Assembly: GCA_001604385.1 (NCBI GenBank)
Contig: LVBK01000013.1
Span: 62,001-126,000 of the forward strand
Length of the DNA stretch: 64,000 bases
Source of the DNA: Spirochaetales bacterium Spiro_09
GTDB lineage: Bacteria > Spirochaetota > Spirochaetia > Treponematales > Treponemataceae
Direction of reading: 5' to 3'
Shown: one piece after another, positions 54,989-64,000 of the stretch
Position numbering within the stretch: position 1 is the first letter of the stretch
How the letters are laid out: every line of letters begins with the position of its first letter
Position numbers and translations under genes: made by a program
Notes under the pieces: generated by a model
What the model was told of the DNA's origin: nothing
What the model saw: only the letters and a program-made list of their open reading frames with translations
The model's database searches: none

Positions 54989-56251
54989 TTACCGGGTAGG
55001 ACGCTTTTTCAGATAGTCTGTATCTACCGCCTGACCGGAACCATTTGCCTGTTCCATCAGTGCGCGTACCTTCAGGGGCAAACCAAACAAATTGATAAAG
55101 CCTTCAGCATCATGATGATTATAGAGCTCTCCGGTTGTAAAGCTTGCAATCTTCTCGTTATATAAGCTGTACGGGGATCCCGAACCGGCGCCCCTGATTG
55201 AACCCTTATACAGTTTGACGCGAACCCAACCGGTAACTTTTTCCTGGGTAACCGCTACAAAGGCCTTGAGGGACTCCATGAGTGTGGTATACCAGCGACC
55301 ATTGTAAATCAATTCGCTCATTTTCAGGGCAATGTGTTGCTTGAAGAAATAGGTATCACGGTCAAGACACAAATGCTCAAGCTGTTCGTGAGCGAAATAC
55401 AAAATGGATCCGCCCGGTGTTTCGTACACACCGCGGCTCTTCATACCGACCACACGATTTTCAACAATATCGATCAAGCCGACACCGTTACGACCGCCAA
55501 TGGTATTCAACTCCTGCATTAACTCAAGAGCGCCCATCTTTTTTCCGTTTACCGATACAGGTACGCCTTTTTCAAACGCTATCTCGACATATTCACCGGC
55601 TTCGGGAGCTTCTTCGGGCACTGTCGTCAACTGGAGCATGTGTTTCCAGTTCGGTTCGTTCTTGGTTTCCTCAAGCTCAAGACCCTCGTGGGAGAGATGG
55701 AAAATATTCTCGTCCCGGCTGTAGGACTGATCTTTTTTCATCGGAACCGGTATGTTCCGTTTTTCAAGATAGGCAATTTCCGCTTCACGACTGTCCATGT
55801 CCCATTTGGGGTCACGCCAGGCCGCGATAATTTTGAGATCGGGCGCAAAGGCCTTGATGGTCAGTTCAAACCGGATCTGATCGTTGCCCTTACCCGTTGC
55901 TCCATGGGAAATCGCGACTGCTCCCTCTTGCCGGGCATACTCGACCAGAATTTTTGCGATAAGCGGACGGGCAGTAGAGGTTCCCAGAAGATAGCGGTCT
56001 TCATATACCGCGTTTGCCTGAACAGCAGGAAACACAAAATCGGTGATATATTCTTCACGGGCATCCACGACGTAACAGGCTGTAGCGCCTGTATCAAGAG
56101 CGCGTTTTTTGATGACCGGCCAATCATCTCCCTGACCCAAATCGATACACACCGCTATAACATCATAATCATAATGCTCTTTGAGCCACGGAATGATGAC
56201 CGTGGTATCAAGCCCTCCCGAATAAGCGAGTATTACCTTTTCTTTTGCCAT
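54989..56251 (-). CDS. argG: Argininosuccinate synthase
   Basis: This 420-residue protein has the ATP-pyrophosphatase motif [30 protein letters not shown], and the citrulline/aspartate-binding segments [24 protein letters not shown] and [14 protein letters not shown]. It joins citrulline and aspartate. AGGAG lies about seven bases before the ATG. The transcript seems to carry an ~86-base leader with two hairpins. Confidence 0.96.
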
Positions 56252-56409: not shown

Positions 56410-58113
56410 CTACTCCCGCTCAAGAGCGCATGCCTTCTCGTGAAGCTCAAGTACTTTCCGGTGAAAATACTTCTCTATCGATCGTTCTTCGATAATTCCC
56501 TCCACAACGCCGTCAGAGGAAACAACCGGAATTGTATCTACTCCGTTCGTTCTGAACTGTTCGCGAATTTCACTTACCGGTGTCGTTGCCGCGCATCGGA
56601 GGGGAGAAGAATCCATCACGTCGCAAGCCAGCAAGCCGTCGGCAATATCCCCGAGCAACAGAGCCTCTTTCAGGTTCTCGATAGTAATTATCCCCACAAG
56701 GTGCCGGGAAGCATCGCAGACAGGACAGCTCAGGGTTGCCTGACGGCTGAAAGCGTCAACCACTGCCCTGAAGGGTGCATCCTCTTTCAGATAGCGTGCA
56801 ATCCGTTGGTCACGAATCACATCGGTAACGGTTGCTTCACGCAGTAAATCTTCCTCGGTTATATCGAGGCCGCACTCACCCGCTTTTGTCACCCCATGTT
56901 TGACACAAACAGGACCGACAAGCTGAACAACAAAAGTGGTAGCAGTAATAACCAGGATCACCGTTGGCCCGAGCGACTCCGGGAATATCCGCCCTGCCGA
57001 GATGGAGAGACCTATCGCGACTCCGGCCTGGCTCAATAAACACCACTTCAGATACTTCCGGACAGAGAGCGGTGCCTTGGTTATTTTGGCACCCAGGGTT
57101 GCACCCACGGCCTTGCCAACTGTACGGGCCAGTACATACATGAGGGCTAAAAGGGCAAGAAAGGGAGAGACGCTCCAGATGTTCAGTTTTGCACCGACAA
57201 TCACAAAGAAAAGCACATATACCGGGGGAGTAAACCGGTCTACCAGTCGAAAAAGATCGCTCGATCGCGCCGCTGCATAGTTTGAAATGAAAAAACCCAT
57301 CGCCATGGCGGATAAAATGGAATCAAGGGAAAAGTAGGTGCAAATACCGGTAAGGATAAGAATCAGACCAAGCGCAAACGCAAGCGCGCGTCCCTCATCA
57401 TGTTTCAGGGAGCGCATGATCAGGGCGAGAAGCGCGCCAAAGACTACACCCACCAAAATTGAAAGACCGACATGATAGACTATATGTACAAGTTGAGCAC
57501 CCAATCCGGCAGTTCGCTCTCCAATCAACCCGCCGGCTATGGTAGACGCGACCGCAAATAGCACCAGTGCTATTGCATCATCCATCGCAACTATCCCGTA
57601 CAGCATTGTAGTCAAGGGTCCCTTGGTCCTGTTCTCCGCCAGAACATCTGTTGTGGCAGCCGGTGCAGTCGCAGAAGCTATTGCACCGAGTACCAGGCCG
57701 AGAGCAACGGAGGTCGCAATATCACGGGTGACCAGGGCGCTTGCCACACTTATTAACACAGTTACCACGATAAATGGAACGACAGCCTCAAGAAGCAAAA
57801 TTCCGGTAAACTGTTTTCCGTATTTTTTCAGGAGTGAAATTTTTAGTTCCCCCCCGATCAAAAAGCCTATCAGCGAGAGAGCGAGGCTGCTTATCGGCTC
57901 AAGACTTCCAAGAACGGAGGCGGAAAGAAGCCGTGAGCCTGATTGACCGACAAGTATCCCGATAACTATATAGCCGACAACCTGGGGGAAATGAATTTTT
58001 CGAAAAATATACCCACCCGAGGCCCCGAGAAACAAAATCATACCGAAAAGAAAAATGCTGTTCGCCCGTTCAAGTGCATCGAACTGTAGAATATCGGGAA
58101 GATAATCGATCAT
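56410..58113 (-). CDS. CPA2 cation:proton antiporter with CBS pair
   Basis: The protein is 567 residues. About twelve membrane helices carry the Na+/H+ exchanger pattern (VVGYIVIGILVGQSG, MALSLIGFLIGGELKISL, SATAPAATTDVL, and MDDAIALVLFA with the paired aspartates). A cytoplasmic tail follows with two CBS repeats (about 440-550). It should exchange Na+ or K+ for protons, with nucleotide control through the CBS pair. Its ATG overlaps the argD stop by four bases, tying an ion transporter to the arg operon. Confidence 0.88.
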   Translation of the reverse strand: MIDYLPDILQFDALERANSIFLFGMILFLGASGGYIFRKIHFPQVVGYIVIGILVGQSGSRLLSASVLGSLEPISSLALSLIGFLIGGELKISLLKKYGKQFTGILLLEAVVPFIVVTVLISVASALVTRDIATSVALGLVLGAIASATAPAATTDVLAENRTKGPLTTMLYGIVAMDDAIALVLFAVASTIAGGLIGERTAGLGAQLVHIVYHVGLSILVGVVFGALLALIMRSLKHDEGRALAFALGLILILTGICTYFSLDSILSAMAMGFFISNYAAARSSDLFRLVDRFTPPVYVLFFVIVGAKLNIWSVSPFLALLALMYVLARTVGKAVGATLGAKITKAPLSVRKYLKWCLLSQAGVAIGLSISAGRIFPESLGPTVILVITATTFVVQLVGPVCVKHGVTKAGECGLDITEEDLLREATVTDVIRDQRIARYLKEDAPFRAVVDAFSRQATLSCPVCDASRHLVGIITIENLKEALLLGDIADGLLACDVMDSSPLRCAATTPVSEIREQFRTNGVDTIPVVSSDGVVEGIIEERSIEKYFHRKVLELHEKACALERE

Positions 58114-59303
58114 GAGCCGAGCACCTCCGCAAGAATATCAAGGCCGTCGTCAATTTCTTTCATGGTAATAACCAGCGGAGGAAGAAACCGCAGGGTGGAA
58201 GGGCCAGCGGTAGATATACACAAACCAGTCGATTGAGGGCCGGCTTTTTTCAGGCACTCGAGCTGTACGGCTGACGCGTTTCCTTTAATATCGATACCGA
58301 TCATCAAACCCTTGCCCCGGACATTGATAATCTCGGGATGCTTCCAGGCACTCACCTTCGACCGGATATAATCCCCTTTCTCTGCTACCTTCGCCAGAAA
58401 ACCCGGCTCGGAAAGCACGTCAAGCACCGCGCTCGCCGCGGCACAGGCAAGGGGATTTCCCCCAAAGGTTGACTGATGATCACCGGCCACAAGCGATTGT
58501 GCTGCCTTTCCCCGTGCAAGACAGGCTCCCATCGGAATACCTCCGGCTATTCCCTTCGCAAGGGTAACTACATCGGGCTGTATTCCCAGGCCGTCACTTG
58601 CAAGAAATGCGCCGGTTCTTCCGATTCCGGTCTGAACCTCGTCGGCAATGACGATGGCGCCCGCATTCCGCGCCGCTTCACTGGCAGCTTGCGCCCATTG
58701 TGCGTCAACCAGATTGACCCCGCCTTCTCCCTGTACGCACTCGAGCATAAAGGCGCACACTGAATCATCAAACGCTGTTTTAAGCGCCTCATAATTGTTC
58801 GCTTCAATAAACCGGAATCCGGCCGTATAGGGGGCGAAGGCCGGCGCATGAAATTTCTCCTGGCCGGTAGCAGAAAGCGTCGTTATGGTCCGTCCATGAA
58901 ACGATTTGAAAAGTGTGACAATAACGTGCCGGGTTCCCGGTTTTTTCCCCGCCTCTGCATCCGAAAGCGCTCCAGTTTTGCGGGCGATTTTAATCGCGGC
59001 TTCATTTGCTTCCGCGCCCGAATTGCCGAAGAACACCCGGTCCATGCCGGTCTTTGCCAGAAGAGCCGCAGCGTATGAAAGCCCCTTGTCCGAATTATAA
59101 TAGTTGGAAATATGAATCTGCCGGGCAGCCTGTTCACAAATGGCACCAACCAGCGCCGGATGATTATGACCAAGACAATTAACACCAATTCCGGAAACAA
59201 AATCTATATACTTGTTCCCTTCGGTATCGGTCAGAGTACTACCCTGCCCGGATGTGAAAACCACCGGCAAACTGCCCAGATTATTAATAATAGAACCAGC
59301 CAT
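58110..59303 (-). CDS. argD: Acetylornithine aminotransferase
   Basis: This 397-residue class III aminotransferase has SGIGVNCLGHNHPALV, FFGNSGAEANEAAIK, FKSFHGRTITTLSATGQ, VIADEVQTGIGRTGAF and the PLP lysine in TLAKGIAGGIPMGA. It interconverts acetylglutamate semialdehyde and acetylornithine. AGGAGA lies five bases before the ATG. It shares four bases with the antiporter gene. Confidence 0.95.
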   Translation of the reverse strand: MAGSIINNLGSLPVVFTSGQGSTLTDTEGNKYIDFVSGIGVNCLGHNHPALVGAICEQAARQIHISNYYNSDKGLSYAAALLAKTGMDRVFFGNSGAEANEAAIKIARKTGALSDAEAGKKPGTRHVIVTLFKSFHGRTITTLSATGQEKFHAPAFAPYTAGFRFIEANNYEALKTAFDDSVCAFMLECVQGEGGVNLVDAQWAQAASEAARNAGAIVIADEVQTGIGRTGAFLASDGLGIQPDVVTLAKGIAGGIPMGACLARGKAAQSLVAGDHQSTFGGNPLACAAASAVLDVLSEPGFLAKVAEKGDYIRSKVSAWKHPEIINVRGKGLMIGIDIKGNASAVQLECLKKAGPQSTGLCISTAGPSTLRFLPPLVITMKEIDDGLDILAEVLGS

Positions 59304-59461: not shown

Positions 59462-60334
59462 TCAGGTAAGCATTGTTCCGACACCGCGATCGGAAAACAT
59501 CTCGATCAGCAAGGCATGGGGAACACGTCCGTCGATAATGTGGGTTCGGGGAACCCCGCCCTTGAGCGCTTCAAGACAACACTCTATTTTGGGAATCATG
59601 CCCGAGGATATTACCCCGGTGGCAATCATTGACGGAATCGCCACATGGTCAATACGCTTGATGAGCGATGAGGGATCATTCACATCCCGCAAGACGCCGG
59701 GCACATTGGTTAGCTGCACAAATTTCTCCGCCTTGAGCGCGACCGCGATCAGGGCTGCGGCAGTGTCGGCATTCACATTGTACCGGTTCATGTCCCCCTG
59801 TTCACCTACCGCGACAGTTGAAACGACCGGAATATACCCCTGTGACAGAAGGGACTCGAGAATACCGGGGTTAACCTCGGTGACATCTCCGACCAGACCG
59901 AGATCAACCCCGTCCTTGTCTATTTTCCGTGCCCGGAGCAAACCGGAGTCAACGCCGCTGACACCGATTGCCTTCCCTCCGGCCTGTAATATGAGGCCGA
60001 CAATATCCTTGTTCAATTTGCCGGTCAGTACCATCTGTACAATTTCCATGGTATCAGCATCCGTATAGCGTAAACCATTGATAAATTTGGGTTCAATCCC
60101 GACACGGGACAACATGGAATTTATCTCCGGTCCTCCGCCGTGGACAAGAACCGTGTTTACGCCGATTGTATTAAGCAATACAATGTCCTGCATAACGGCT
60201 GCTTTGAGTTCTTCGTTCAGCATCGCGTTTCCGCCGTACTTCACCACAATTGTCTTGCCGACAAATTGCTTGAAATATGGCAGGGCCTGAACCAGAATAT
60301 TTGCCCAGTCTTCATTATCTATCTTGTCTATCAT
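59462..60334 (-). CDS. argB: N-acetylglutamate kinase
   Basis: This 290-residue amino-acid-kinase protein has KTIVVKYGGNAMLNEELK, VLVHGGGPEINSML, GLRYTDADTMEIVQMVL, and VQLTNVPGVLRD, with INADTAAA-like NVNADTAAALIAVALKA. It phosphorylates acetylglutamate, usually the arginine-feedback step. Its ATG overlaps the argJ stop by four bases. Confidence 0.96.
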   Translation of the reverse strand: MIDKIDNEDWANILVQALPYFKQFVGKTIVVKYGGNAMLNEELKAAVMQDIVLLNTIGVNTVLVHGGGPEINSMLSRVGIEPKFINGLRYTDADTMEIVQMVLTGKLNKDIVGLILQAGGKAIGVSGVDSGLLRARKIDKDGVDLGLVGDVTEVNPGILESLLSQGYIPVVSTVAVGEQGDMNRYNVNADTAAALIAVALKAEKFVQLTNVPGVLRDVNDPSSLIKRIDHVAIPSMIATGVISSGMIPKIECCLEALKGGVPRTHIIDGRVPHALLIEMFSDRGVGTMLT

Positions 60335-61548
60335 GTCCGGTAATCTCCGTTGATCTTTACATAGTCATAGGTCAAATCGCAGCCCCAGGCGGTACCTGAT
60401 CCCTTCCCGTCCTTCAATTCAATTCTTATGCCGATTTCCTTTTCTCCCAGAATAAGCTTTCCCTTATCTTCATCAAAATCGAGCGGGACACCCTCGTGAA
60501 ATACTTCTATTTCACCGGCAGCGCTTCTGAAATACACGCTGGTACCTTCCGGTTTGAACAGCTGTCCTGAATACCCCATAGCGCACAGGATACGGCCCCA
60601 GTTTGCATCCCTCCCGAAAAAGGCAGCCTTCACCAGACTCGATGAAATAACTGACTTGGCCAGAGTTCGCGCGACCGCATCATCGGTTGCACCCGAAACC
60701 ATACACTCGATAAGATGTTGTGCACCCTCACCGTCAGCTGCTATCATGCGGGCCATTGTGGTATTCAAAAGATCAAGGGCTGAGACAAAAACCTCAAAGT
60801 CCTTTCCTCTGGAATTGATGATTTTGTTTCCTGCCATGCCATTTGCAAGAATAATCAGCGTGTCATTCGTACTGGTGTCTCCGTCCACGCTGACGCAATT
60901 GTATGTTCGCTCGACACTATCTGTCAGAGCAGTTTTCAGCATGTCGGACGAGATTGCACAGTCAGTAGTGATAAAGCCAAGCATGGTTCCCATATTGATA
61001 TGGATCATTCCTGATCCCTTCGCCATGGTTCCGAGTGTAACGGTCTTGCCGCCGATTTCTACCTGAACAGCCGCTTCCTTGTGAACAAGATCGGTTGTCA
61101 TAATAGCTTCACGGGCGCGAACATTTCCGTTTCTGGATAAACCGGACACCGCAAGCGGCATTGCTTTTTCAATACAGTCAATATTGATTTGCTGACCGAT
61201 TACGCCGGTTGAACAGACCAACACATCCGTTTCCCGCAAAGCCAGTTCCCGGGCGGCAGACTTTGCCATCCGGAGGGCGTTGTCGTAACCCTGCGCGCCG
61301 GTACACGCATTCGCATTACCCGCATTCGCGACTATTGCCCGCGCACTACCGTCAGCAATATGTTTTTGGGTCAATTTGACCGGTTCGGCTTTCACCAGGT
61401 TTTTTGTAAAGACCGCAGCTGCAGTACAGTCGGTTTCCGATACAATCAGCGCAAGATCATGCTTCGTCCGGCCTTTTTTTATACCGGCCAGCACACTGTT
61501 TGCGGTAAAACCCGCAGGGGCGCAAACGCCGCCTTCTATCATTGTCAT
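60331..61548 (-). CDS. argJ: Bifunctional ornithine acetyltransferase/N-acetylglutamate synthase ArgJ
   Basis: This 405-residue protein has the self-cleavage region AKGSGMIHINMGTML, where the Thr is the nucleophile (MGTML replaces the usual MATML), and CVSVDGDTSTNDTLIILANG. Recycling of the acetyl group through ArgJ makes the pathway cyclic, so no argA or argE is needed. It is preceded by argC (15 bases) and overlaps argB by four. Confidence 0.95.
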   Translation of the reverse strand: MTMIEGGVCAPAGFTANSVLAGIKKGRTKHDLALIVSETDCTAAAVFTKNLVKAEPVKLTQKHIADGSARAIVANAGNANACTGAQGYDNALRMAKSAARELALRETDVLVCSTGVIGQQINIDCIEKAMPLAVSGLSRNGNVRAREAIMTTDLVHKEAAVQVEIGGKTVTLGTMAKGSGMIHINMGTMLGFITTDCAISSDMLKTALTDSVERTYNCVSVDGDTSTNDTLIILANGMAGNKIINSRGKDFEVFVSALDLLNTTMARMIAADGEGAQHLIECMVSGATDDAVARTLAKSVISSSLVKAAFFGRDANWGRILCAMGYSGQLFKPEGTSVYFRSAAGEIEVFHEGVPLDFDEDKGKLILGEKEIGIRIELKDGKGSGTAWGCDLTYDYVKINGDYRT

Positions 61549-61563
61549 CGTACATCCTCCTCG

Positions 61564-62613
61564 TCAGAATGCAGCCGGAATATCGTCGATCCCGGCAGTT
61601 TCATCAAAGCCGAACAACAGATTCATGTTTTGAACCGCCTGTCCGGCTGCGCCCTTCACCATATTGTCTATGGCTGCCACCACTTCAAGCATGGTGCCGC
61701 CGTTTACCACATGCACCGAAATATCGCAATAATTTGACATGCGCACATTGCGTGTCGTCGCGGTAGAGCCAACGGGCAGGACTCTCACGAAGGGTTCATC
61801 CCGATAATGCGCTTCATACAGGGTATGGATTTCCTCAATTTTCGCGGGTGCCAACAAGCGCGCATATACCGTAGCGATAATGCCGCGACTCATCGGCAAG
61901 AGATGCGGGGTGAAAATGACATTCACCTCCTGTTTGGCAACCTTCGTCATATTCCGTGCAATTTCCGGTTGATGCCGGTGCTTGCCTACATTGTACGGCA
62001 TGAAGGATTCTCCCGATTCAGCAAAATGATTGGTTTGCGTCGGGTTCCGTCCGGTGCCGCTGATACCGCTTTTCGCATCCACAATCACCATGCCGGGATC
62101 GACAAGACCTTTGGCAAGGGCTGGGAGCAACGAAAGACTTGCAGCGGTAACGTAACATCCCGGGTTGCCGATTACACTCGCCTTTTTGATCTTTTCCCGG
62201 TTCATTTCCGGAAGACCATAGACCGACTGGGCATGTACCGCGGGAAATTCATATTTTTTCTTGTACCACTGTTCGAAGGTTGCCTCATCTTCGTCAAAGC
62301 GAAAATCTGCGGACAAATCCACCAGCTTCTTCCCCTGTGCAAGACAGGTGACGGCATACTGTTCCGCTATGCCATGAGGGAGCGCGGTAAAGACAATTTC
62401 TGAAGCGGCAACAACCGTATCAGCGTCAACTAAAAGACCGTCGGTCTTTCGGTCAAGAACGCCCCTCAGATTCGGGTACATATCAACAATATTTTGTCCC
62501 TCAAAGCTTACCGAGCTGAGAACCAGCCGATTGACCGAAGGATGCTTGAGAAGAAGGCGAACAAGTTCTACACCGACATAGCCGGTGGCACCGATAATAC
62601 CAGCAGTTATCAT
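61564..62613 (-). CDS. argC: N-acetyl-gamma-glutamyl-phosphate reductase
   Basis: This 349-residue protein has the NADP motif GIIGATGYVGVELVRLL, LPHGIAEQ, the active-site cysteine in ASVIGNPGCYVTAASL, and HRHQPEI with AVFTPHLLPMSRG-like VIFTPHLLPMSRGI. It makes acetylglutamate semialdehyde. GGAG seven bases before the ATG supports the start. It is the first structural gene of argC-J-B-D and lies 97 bases after the leader-peptide stop. Confidence 0.96.
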   Translation of the reverse strand: MITAGIIGATGYVGVELVRLLLKHPSVNRLVLSSVSFEGQNIVDMYPNLRGVLDRKTDGLLVDADTVVAASEIVFTALPHGIAEQYAVTCLAQGKKLVDLSADFRFDEDEATFEQWYKKKYEFPAVHAQSVYGLPEMNREKIKKASVIGNPGCYVTAASLSLLPALAKGLVDPGMVIVDAKSGISGTGRNPTQTNHFAESGESFMPYNVGKHRHQPEIARNMTKVAKQEVNVIFTPHLLPMSRGIIATVYARLLAPAKIEEIHTLYEAHYRDEPFVRVLPVGSTATTRNVRMSNYCDISVHVVNGGTMLEVVAAIDNMVKGAAGQAVQNMNLLFGFDETAGIDDIPAAF

Positions 62614-62664
62614 ACTATTACTCCATTTTCTGTTACTGTAACGGATACGGGGATGAGTTTAAAG

Positions 62665-62683
62665 CCGTTCGCAACCCGAACGG
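62665..62683 (-). promoter_or_regulatory. Stable hairpin in the argC leader
   Basis: CCGTTCG pairs with CGAACGG around a five-base loop. On the reverse strand only three T follow (CTTTAAA), so it is a weak terminator at most. On the forward strand the same hairpin is followed by GGCGATTTTT. Confidence 0.5.
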
Positions 62684-62709
62684 GGCGATTTTTATAGGGA
62701 GGTGTACGC

Positions 62710-62778
62710 CTAACGGCGACGGAGGGAGGAGAGGGAGAACGGGTTTAGTGTATGCAAATGCGAAGAATCATGATGCAT
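62710..62778 (-). CDS. 22-residue arg-operon leader peptide ending Arg-Arg-Arg-stop
   Basis: The ATG at 62778 follows AGGAGA (62789-62784) by five bases. The peptide starts MHHDSSHLH, with four His codons, and ends SLRRR: codons CGT CGC CGT, then TAG. Three consecutive arginine codons next to the stop, in the leader of argC-J-B-D, are the hallmark of an arginine-sensing attenuator or stalling peptide. A small hairpin CGCC-GTTA-GGCG (62718-62707) overlaps the arginine codons. The alternative pairing GCCGTT with AACGGC would link it to the next hairpin. Confidence 0.7.
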   Translation of the reverse strand: MHHDSSHLHTLNPFSLSSLRRR

Positions 62779-62835
62779 AATACTCTCCTGATAGAAGTTT
62801 GTGCAAAGCAGCTATGCCATAACACTCGTTGTATT

Positions 62836-62865
62836 ATAGTATCGGCTTTACTCAGAAATGGTCAA
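62836..62865 (-). promoter_or_regulatory. Promoter of the argCJBD operon
   Basis: Reverse-strand TTGACC (62865-62860), an 18-base spacer and TACTAT (62841-62836), overlapping TATAAT (62838-62833). The start would be near 62827, leaving about 50 bases before the leader peptide. Confidence 0.65.
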
Positions 62866-62879
62866 GACCTTGCTATGTA

Positions 62880-64000
62880 TTAGACGGGTGTACTGTTGAT
62901 ACCCAAATCCAGTGGTCGTTTATTGTCAGAAAGGCGGCGGGACAAATAGTCCCGATCCAGATCCAGCCGATCAACCAATAGTTTTGTCTGTTCAGCCGAT
63001 AATAAATTTTGCTCGGCATACAGATATACTATGGCTCGTTCCGCAATATTCGGCACCTTCAAGGCATTCATTTGCTCGGTTGACGGTTTTGGTCCGTCCA
63101 TATACCGGGATATAAAACTTTTCCACAGTTCAGATTGTTCGCTTTGAAACCGAATTAGGGAAAGCTCGCGTTCAAGCGGCTCCAGGTTACCGACACTCGC
63201 CTCCTGGCCAAGCGGTTTGAGCGTAAAATAGGTATACTGCTTTCCCGGAAGATAGTGGTGCTGATCGCAGCGGGTACAATAATTCGGCTCAAGAGGATCT
63301 TCTTTTTCCCTGTCGCCGCCAATGATGATGAGGGGGTCAAAAAAAAGGGCCGGACACTCGATACCGTCTACATAATAATAGCGGTAGGTATTATGAGCAT
63401 TTTCCAGACATTCCGAATGTTCACAGTAGGCCGAAAGAGGATAAATATCGGTGGAGGTTTCCATCAAAAGGCGGGCTGTTGCGTTGAACATTTCGCCACG
63501 GAAATTGAGCAGAAGCGTCGGCATGACAAACACAAGGCCCCGCTGTTCGGATTCACGTTTCACCAGATAGGCAAGACGCTCATCGTAAAATGCGGCCTCG
63601 TCAATTATCCAGGTACCGACGTGGGGATTATGCTTGATGAGATTTTCAAGATCGAAGGAATTGCTGATGGTCGCAATATGCTTTCCGCATCGTTCATACC
63701 CGCCCCGGTAGGCAAGGGCATCTTCCGGATACTCGGTAAAACGCATTCTGTCCAGGGAGTAGCGTACAAAAAAAGTATTTCGCCGATCCGCACAGCCAAT
63801 TCCCGACTCGGGCTCAAACAATTCTTTTTGGCTTCCACCCCCGCTCGTGAGCCAGGAAATTGACGAACCTTTTTTCCGGGCTACCGCCGCATCGCGCCAG
63901 AGGCGGGCAGCATATTCCGTTTTACCGGAACCCATCGGTCCTATTACCAGAATGGTGCGCGAGGGTTCGATAAAATCAAAATGGGTGTTTGCCTCATGAA
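62880..64000 (-). CDS. Thymidine-kinase-like protein, 5' end beyond window
   Basis: The frame is open through base 64000, so the start is outside. The visible part has the P-loop VIGPMGSGKTEYAARL, WIIDEAAFYDERLAYLVKRESEQRGLVF with the catalytic Glu (usual DEAQF is DEAAF), and NFRGEMFNATARLLMETST. Zinc-ribbon cysteines (CEHSEC, CTRCDQH) and PALFFDPLIIIGGDRE also match type II thymidine kinases. A C-terminal extension of about 110 residues, helical and charged, follows. The first in-frame ATG visible, at 63935, lies inside the P-loop and cannot be the true start. Confidence 0.75.
   Translation of the reverse strand, partial: HEANTHFDFIEPSRTILVIGPMGSGKTEYAARLWRDAAVARKKGSSISWLTSGGGSQKELFEPESGIGCADRRNTFFVRYSLDRMRFTEYPEDALAYRGGYERCGKHIATISNSFDLENLIKHNPHVGTWIIDEAAFYDERLAYLVKRESEQRGLVFVMPTLLLNFRGEMFNATARLLMETSTDIYPLSAYCEHSECLENAHNTYRYYYVDGIECPALFFDPLIIIGGDREKEDPLEPNYCTRCDQHHYLPGKQYTYFTLKPLGQEASVGNLEPLERELSLIRFQSEQSELWKSFISRYMDGPKPSTEQMNALKVPNIAERAIVYLYAEQNLLSAEQTKLLVDRLDLDRDYLSRRLSDNKRPLDLGINSTPV

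Follow-up and report, generated by a model that had tools for sequence, protein, structure and literature searches.

The synthesis of arginine in bacteria is usually controlled by the repressor ArgR, and leader-peptide control has, to our knowledge, hardly been studied in the spirochaete phylum. In the attenuators of the his, trp, leu and ilv operons, a short open reading frame (ORF) that is rich in codons for the end product and led by a Shine-Dalgarno (SD) sequence directly precedes the biosynthetic operon. The argC locus analysed here has the same layout, although it differs from those attenuators in that the amino acid is arginine, the control codons immediately precede the stop, there is no intrinsic terminator, and the leader is rich in C and poor in G.

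In the tryptophanase operon of Escherichia coli, it is established that a rut site is masked, and Rho thereby blocked, by a ribosome that has stalled where the short ORF tnaC ends (PMC8429421), as we propose for the present locus. However, the arrest at tnaC is caused by free tryptophan through a conserved peptide and serves catabolism, whereas here the lack of charged tRNA-Arg would be sensed in the service of synthesis. In the Salmonella speF leader (orf34/speFL), which has Arg codons in the leader ORF and involves Rho, as proposed here, the rate of translation senses arginine (PMC6386406); the target, however, is ornithine decarboxylase, the peptide is conserved, and regulation is exerted by the Arg codons at positions 12-13, not by the one adjoining the stop. 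The leader ORF rbfL of Staphylococcus aureus senses arginine limitation via Arg codons (PMC13009471), but these are the rare codons AGA/AGG, the leader acts by blocking the ribosome site that follows it, and its target is a biofilm regulator. Mycobacterial cysteine leader peptides, for which Rho-dependent attenuation has been suggested, resemble the present leaders in having runs of end-product codons without terminators (PMC1262725), and differ in the amino acid, in belonging to Actinobacteria and in that their poly-Y motifs are unconserved. A search of the open-access literature (subscription papers were mostly outside its scope) recovered only the speF leader (PMC6386406) and rbfL (PMC13009471) as arginine-codon leaders and no leader-peptide attenuator of arginine biosynthesis. 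Leader-peptide attenuation of arginine synthesis apparently has not been described before, which is a provisional statement.

The window, that is, the whole stretch of 64,000 nucleotides analysed here, contains on its minus strand the genes argC (N-acetyl-gamma-glutamyl-phosphate reductase; 61564-62613), argJ (60331-61548), argB (amino-acid kinase family; 59462-60334) and argD (class-III aminotransferase; 58110-59303), as judged from the ORFs and Pfam. On the same strand, a gene for a Na+/H+ exchanger with a CBS domain (56410-58113) overlaps argD by four bases and may be a member of the arg operon; argG (argininosuccinate synthase; 54989-56251) lies beyond it and is a candidate operon member only. 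Upstream of argC, also on the minus strand, a promoter-like pair was present at 62836-62865 (-35 TTGACC at 62865-62860 and -10 GATACT/TACTAT at 62843-62836). The original prediction, made from this DNA alone, had called this promoter near-consensus; the two elements are there, but with 9 of 12 consensus matches the agreement is moderate. The rest of the predicted architecture was found as described: the SD sequence AGGAGAG at 62789-62783, equivalents of which are present in relatives; an ORF of 22 codons at 62778-62710, encoding MHHDSSHLHTLNPFSLSSLRRR and closing with the codons CGT CGC CGT (62721-62713) and the stop TAG (62712-62710); a small hairpin, CGCC-GTTA-GGCG, at 62718-62707 over the last Arg codons and the stop; and a stable 7-bp hairpin, CCGTTCG-GGTTG-CGAACGG, at 62683-62665. 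The second hairpin is followed by CTTT and not by a U-tract. Its 5' part overlaps a noncoding element, CGCCCCGTT, at 62687-62679, and the SD sequence of argC, TGGAG, is at 62625-62621. Just 5' of the leader promoter there is a minus-strand ORF (62880-63935) with a Walker-A-like GSGKT motif and no Pfam match; a similar C-terminus occurs at the same place in the loci L003 and L007.

We compared this leader with the corresponding region of 12 genomes of the genus, seven of which have argC at this site. All seven have an SD-led ORF of 21-28 codons before argC, ending in LRRR directly before the stop (in the window) or in LRRR[QR]A. The peptides of the other six are MNLASTVTAYPSFLLLRRRQA, MLSRHADISLVSRDGFSPRFRTLRRRQA, MTDQCCETFSALCLSGFHLFRALRRRQA, MVMYLSAVLSVISQSSSPSSALLRRRRA, MNMHGSPDYICITQSKLNLLRTLRRRQA and MTMLVWNKNVSIIQSPLSLLPSLRRRRA, and LRRR is the sole part common to all seven. 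Conservation of the ORF and the Arg run in relatives, on which the original prediction had staked itself, was thus present in 7/7 congeners as well as in a second family (see below), and the alignment that it had recommended showed terminal Arg codons kept at or near the stop and a nucleotide block at the control codons that is invariant in 7/7 congeners. The block CTCCGTCGCCGTNNGGCGTA occurs in exact form once per genome in all seven, always at the leader; elsewhere in the genus there are two further matches, each with two mismatches. The four His codons at the start of the window's leader, which had been left unexplained, are not conserved among the leaders of the genus and are specific to the window, and a role for them as a second signal was rejected on this ground.

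The second family, which belongs to the same order, was reached through a sample of the phylum and contributed 23 argC loci at which the upstream DNA could be read. At 21 of them argC is preceded by an ORF that has an SD, is 29-46 codons long and closes with Arg codons, typically with RRR, YRR, VRR, ARR, SRR or LRR directly before the stop; the exceptions were one RRP, two RK and one ORF with a single terminal Arg. When a strict rule was applied (SD, ATG, 18-50 codons and at least two Arg among the last five codons), 7/7 loci of the genus, 18/23 of the second family and 0/130 control loci passed. The control loci were drawn from the remaining genera sampled in the window's family, from a third family, and from further orders of the class and further phyla. 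Shuffled sequences in which the SD and ATG were kept passed the rule at a rate of about 2.5% (about 0.025 per locus). A -35 element TTGAC[ACT] was found 5' of the leader in 27/28 leader loci. In the argC tree the window's genus is at the base of the argC clade of its family, and the presence of the leader requires 4 changes on the tree as compared with 19.3 in shuffles; the leader may be old and have been lost in some lineages, or it may have been gained twice. Among genus loci, no comparable leader was found before argF or before hisG. When the window was scanned for short ORFs that have an SD and precede a large ORF, none besides the leader had an Arg run or a comparable excess of C. The only Rfam matches in the window were tRNAs, and seven argC loci had no match at E <= 1; a T-box or other Rfam riboswitch at the argC leaders was rejected in the absence of any matching family.

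Across the leaders, the length varies from 21 to 46 codons and the peptide bodies are unconserved, while the SD, ATG, Arg codons and stop are always in one frame. Since the body of the peptide is not conserved, the signal appears to be the Arg codons themselves. Arrest peptides require conserved tunnel residues. An arrest of the nascent peptide by free arginine, like that of the fungal arginine attenuator peptide, would agree with the position of the Arg run next to the stop codon, yet no peptide is conserved beyond the Arg residues and some relatives end in RK or LR; we regard such an arrest as hardly credible. The conserved ORF and Arg codons in two families support the original proposal of an arginine-codon leader peptide that controls argCJBD, and, judged from the sequence comparison, it is very probable that the Arg-codon leader controls argC.

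The original prediction had named ArgR as the usual control of arg genes, which applies to the relatives: 9/12 congeneric genomes and 27/30 from the second family had an ArgR gene, and ARG-box-like sites (12-14 of 14 matches) lie 5' of most leaders, some of them overlapping the -10 element, possibly by chance. It does not appear to apply to the window species, in whose draft genome (G000; 88% complete) ArgR was not found, and no ARG box was found at the argC promoter of the window (62786-62960), where the best site has 11 of 14 matches, the level of shuffled sequences. Within the limits of a draft that is 88% complete, the window species has likely lost ArgR and kept the attenuator. Control of the arg operon by ArgR alone, the leader ORF being a small ORF without regulatory function, draws on the wide occurrence of the repressor and its putative sites in the relatives; it does not account for terminal Arg codons that are conserved over unconserved bodies and before argC only, nor for the persistence of the leader in the window species, and we consider it very improbable. 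Two congeners without this argC (G058 and G072) nevertheless have ArgR and ornithine carbamoyltransferase, which suggests that their ArgR serves another arginine pathway.

We then considered how the leader could act. In classical attenuation, the position of the ribosome selects between an antiterminator and an intrinsic terminator, here the hairpin at 62683-62665. The Arg codons, the hairpin over them and the stable second hairpin are all present, and the segments CGCC/GGCG/CGCC, invariant in 7/7 congeners, could form mutually exclusive pairs. However, the second hairpin is not followed by a U-tract in the window or by any T run in the other six congeners, a scan detected no terminator-like site in 26/28 leaders, and the fold of the whole leader was no better than that of shuffled sequences (z = -0.46). 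An intrinsic terminator in the leader was rejected on the first two of these grounds, and the suggested switch, in which the leader would refold and the second hairpin would act as the terminator, was not borne out. The alternative pairing GCCGTT:AACGGC between the Arg codons and the 3' arm of the second hairpin fared no better, being absent or shortened in several relatives and of the wrong polarity, because a ribosome stalled on the Arg codons would favour the hairpin. Taken together, the evidence makes classical attenuation quite improbable.

Covariation in the stems, which had been recommended as a check, was seen at few positions. Double-sided changes do occur in the downstream hairpin, which lacks a U-tract in both families (one change in the genus and two in the second family), including a swap of C-G to G-C in the second hairpin between L001 and L002/L003, but shuffled sequences frequently equal these counts, so that the covariation is suggestive only. 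RNAalifold of the seven congeners gave short stems only. The predicted hairpin over the Arg codons is present at a conserved position in 7/7 congeners, with invariant paired bases and variation confined to the loop. CGCCCC is invariant in the genus (with the full CGCCCCGTT in 6/7) while the surrounding linker diverges, and its CGCC could pair alternatively with the GGCG that lies at the stop codon, a pairing that would compete with the hairpin over the Arg codons. Note that the CGCC/GGCG/CGCC segments do not vary in the genus, and hence no covariation signal is possible for them. The hairpins at the stop codon and the conserved CGCCCC hint at a structural role of the RNA that the Rho model set out below does not need, and the hairpin without U-tract is possibly a pause site, or a stop for exonuclease that would set the 3' end of a trimmed, Rho-terminated RNA.

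In translational attenuation, the leader RNA would sequester the ribosome site of argC and stalling would free it. In many leaders most of the argC SD is predicted to be base-paired (its mean probability of being unpaired is 0.26), and an Arg-codon leader that governs downstream initiation, although with the opposite sign, exists in rbfL (PMC13009471). In our ensemble folding, however, a gain of more than 0.15 in the accessibility of the argC SD was obtained in 0/28 leaders when the region under a stalled ribosome was masked, and in 1/28 when the whole ORF was; in the window, too, the predicted accessibility was barely changed by a stalled leader ribosome. The structures near argC also differ between the groups. 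Relief of SD sequestration by stalling was therefore not supported by the ensemble model, and we regard translational attenuation as unlikely.

Rho-loading sites are characteristically C-rich, G-poor and weakly structured. The ORF bodies of the leaders have on average 40% C and 16% G and are C-rich and G-poor in all 28; for comparison, C makes up 22-24% and G 27-30% of the six operon genes in the window. C minus G peaks at 21 per 60 nt in the leader of the window (62754-62695, the proposed rut-like Rho-loading region), against at most 13 anywhere in the six operon genes. Upstream of argC, the maximum of C minus G per 60 nt averages 19 in the loci with a leader versus about 6-8 in the leaderless loci. 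At fourfold sites, G makes up 13% in the leaders of the genus as compared with 38% in argC (P = 3e-6), and 18% as compared with 34% in the second family (P = 4e-11). This depletion of G suggests that selection acts on the RNA, although it might also be a means of keeping the leader free of structure. The Rho gene was found in 12/12 genomes of the genus. Such a C-rich, G-poor leader without a terminator points to Rho as the putative terminating factor.

The Arg codons lie 3' of the C-rich stretch, a placement that fits a stalled ribosome with a queue behind it. When one stalled and one queued ribosome were modelled on the 28 leaders, they covered a mean of 58% of the most C-rich segment; the cover was partial in several loci, and in L173 and L175 the most C-rich segment was wholly downstream of it. 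By its composition, which can indicate but cannot prove Rho sites, the leader would contain a rut-type region that a stalled ribosome can cover. The codons CGT and CGC are not rare in the genes of the operon, in which CGG is the commonest Arg codon, and the stall would therefore be caused by ordinary starvation rather than by codon rarity.

We infer the following course of ribosome stalling and Rho loading, including their polarity. When arginine is plentiful, ample charged tRNA-Arg would allow ribosomes to complete the leader and depart, Rho would load onto the bare C-rich leader RNA, and transcription would terminate ahead of argC or soon after entering it. Under arginine shortage, a ribosome would stall on the terminal Arg codons of the ORF, and together with the queue behind it would cover the C-rich stretch, exclude Rho and let argCJBD be transcribed. 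The polarity fits, in that a lack of charged tRNA-Arg at the terminal Arg codons would lead to masking, readthrough and arg expression. As a whole, the explanation of the leader as an arginine-responsive attenuator of argCJBD that works by masking a Rho site seems to us fairly probable, and for the Rho-masking step taken by itself we would put the chances a little better than even. More tentatively, and somewhat short of an even chance, a Rho-dependent arginine attenuator that senses tRNA charging may be ancestral in one spirochaete order; its leader would be a coding rut site that drifts in sequence, stays C-rich and G-poor and is closed by terminal Arg codons, and it would be the sole arginine control in the window species after the loss of ArgR and its operators.

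If this is true, arginine is one more end product that is sensed, at the operon for its own synthesis, by stalling in a leader peptide. The comparison of many diverged leaders would then indicate that selection on a leader ORF can act on a Rho-loading composition rather than on the sequence of its peptide or hairpins, and the relatives would form a natural series, from ArgR together with the attenuator to, apparently, the attenuator alone.

Some further loci may have related leaders. In L034, a Treponema metagenome-assembled genome, a possible leaderless Arg leader, MTLYAKNIFSRFRRFR followed by a stop, precedes argC, its ATG lying close behind a TTGACA promoter. In two genomes of the second family, ORFs ending in SR or WR at L176 and L169 have no SD and are possible leaderless Arg leaders as well. 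In part of the second family (L166-L186), the leader ends with CGT ARR TAA and is directly followed by GGCG-nnnnn-CGCC and a C-rich linker, a motif at the nucleotide level that spans several genera.
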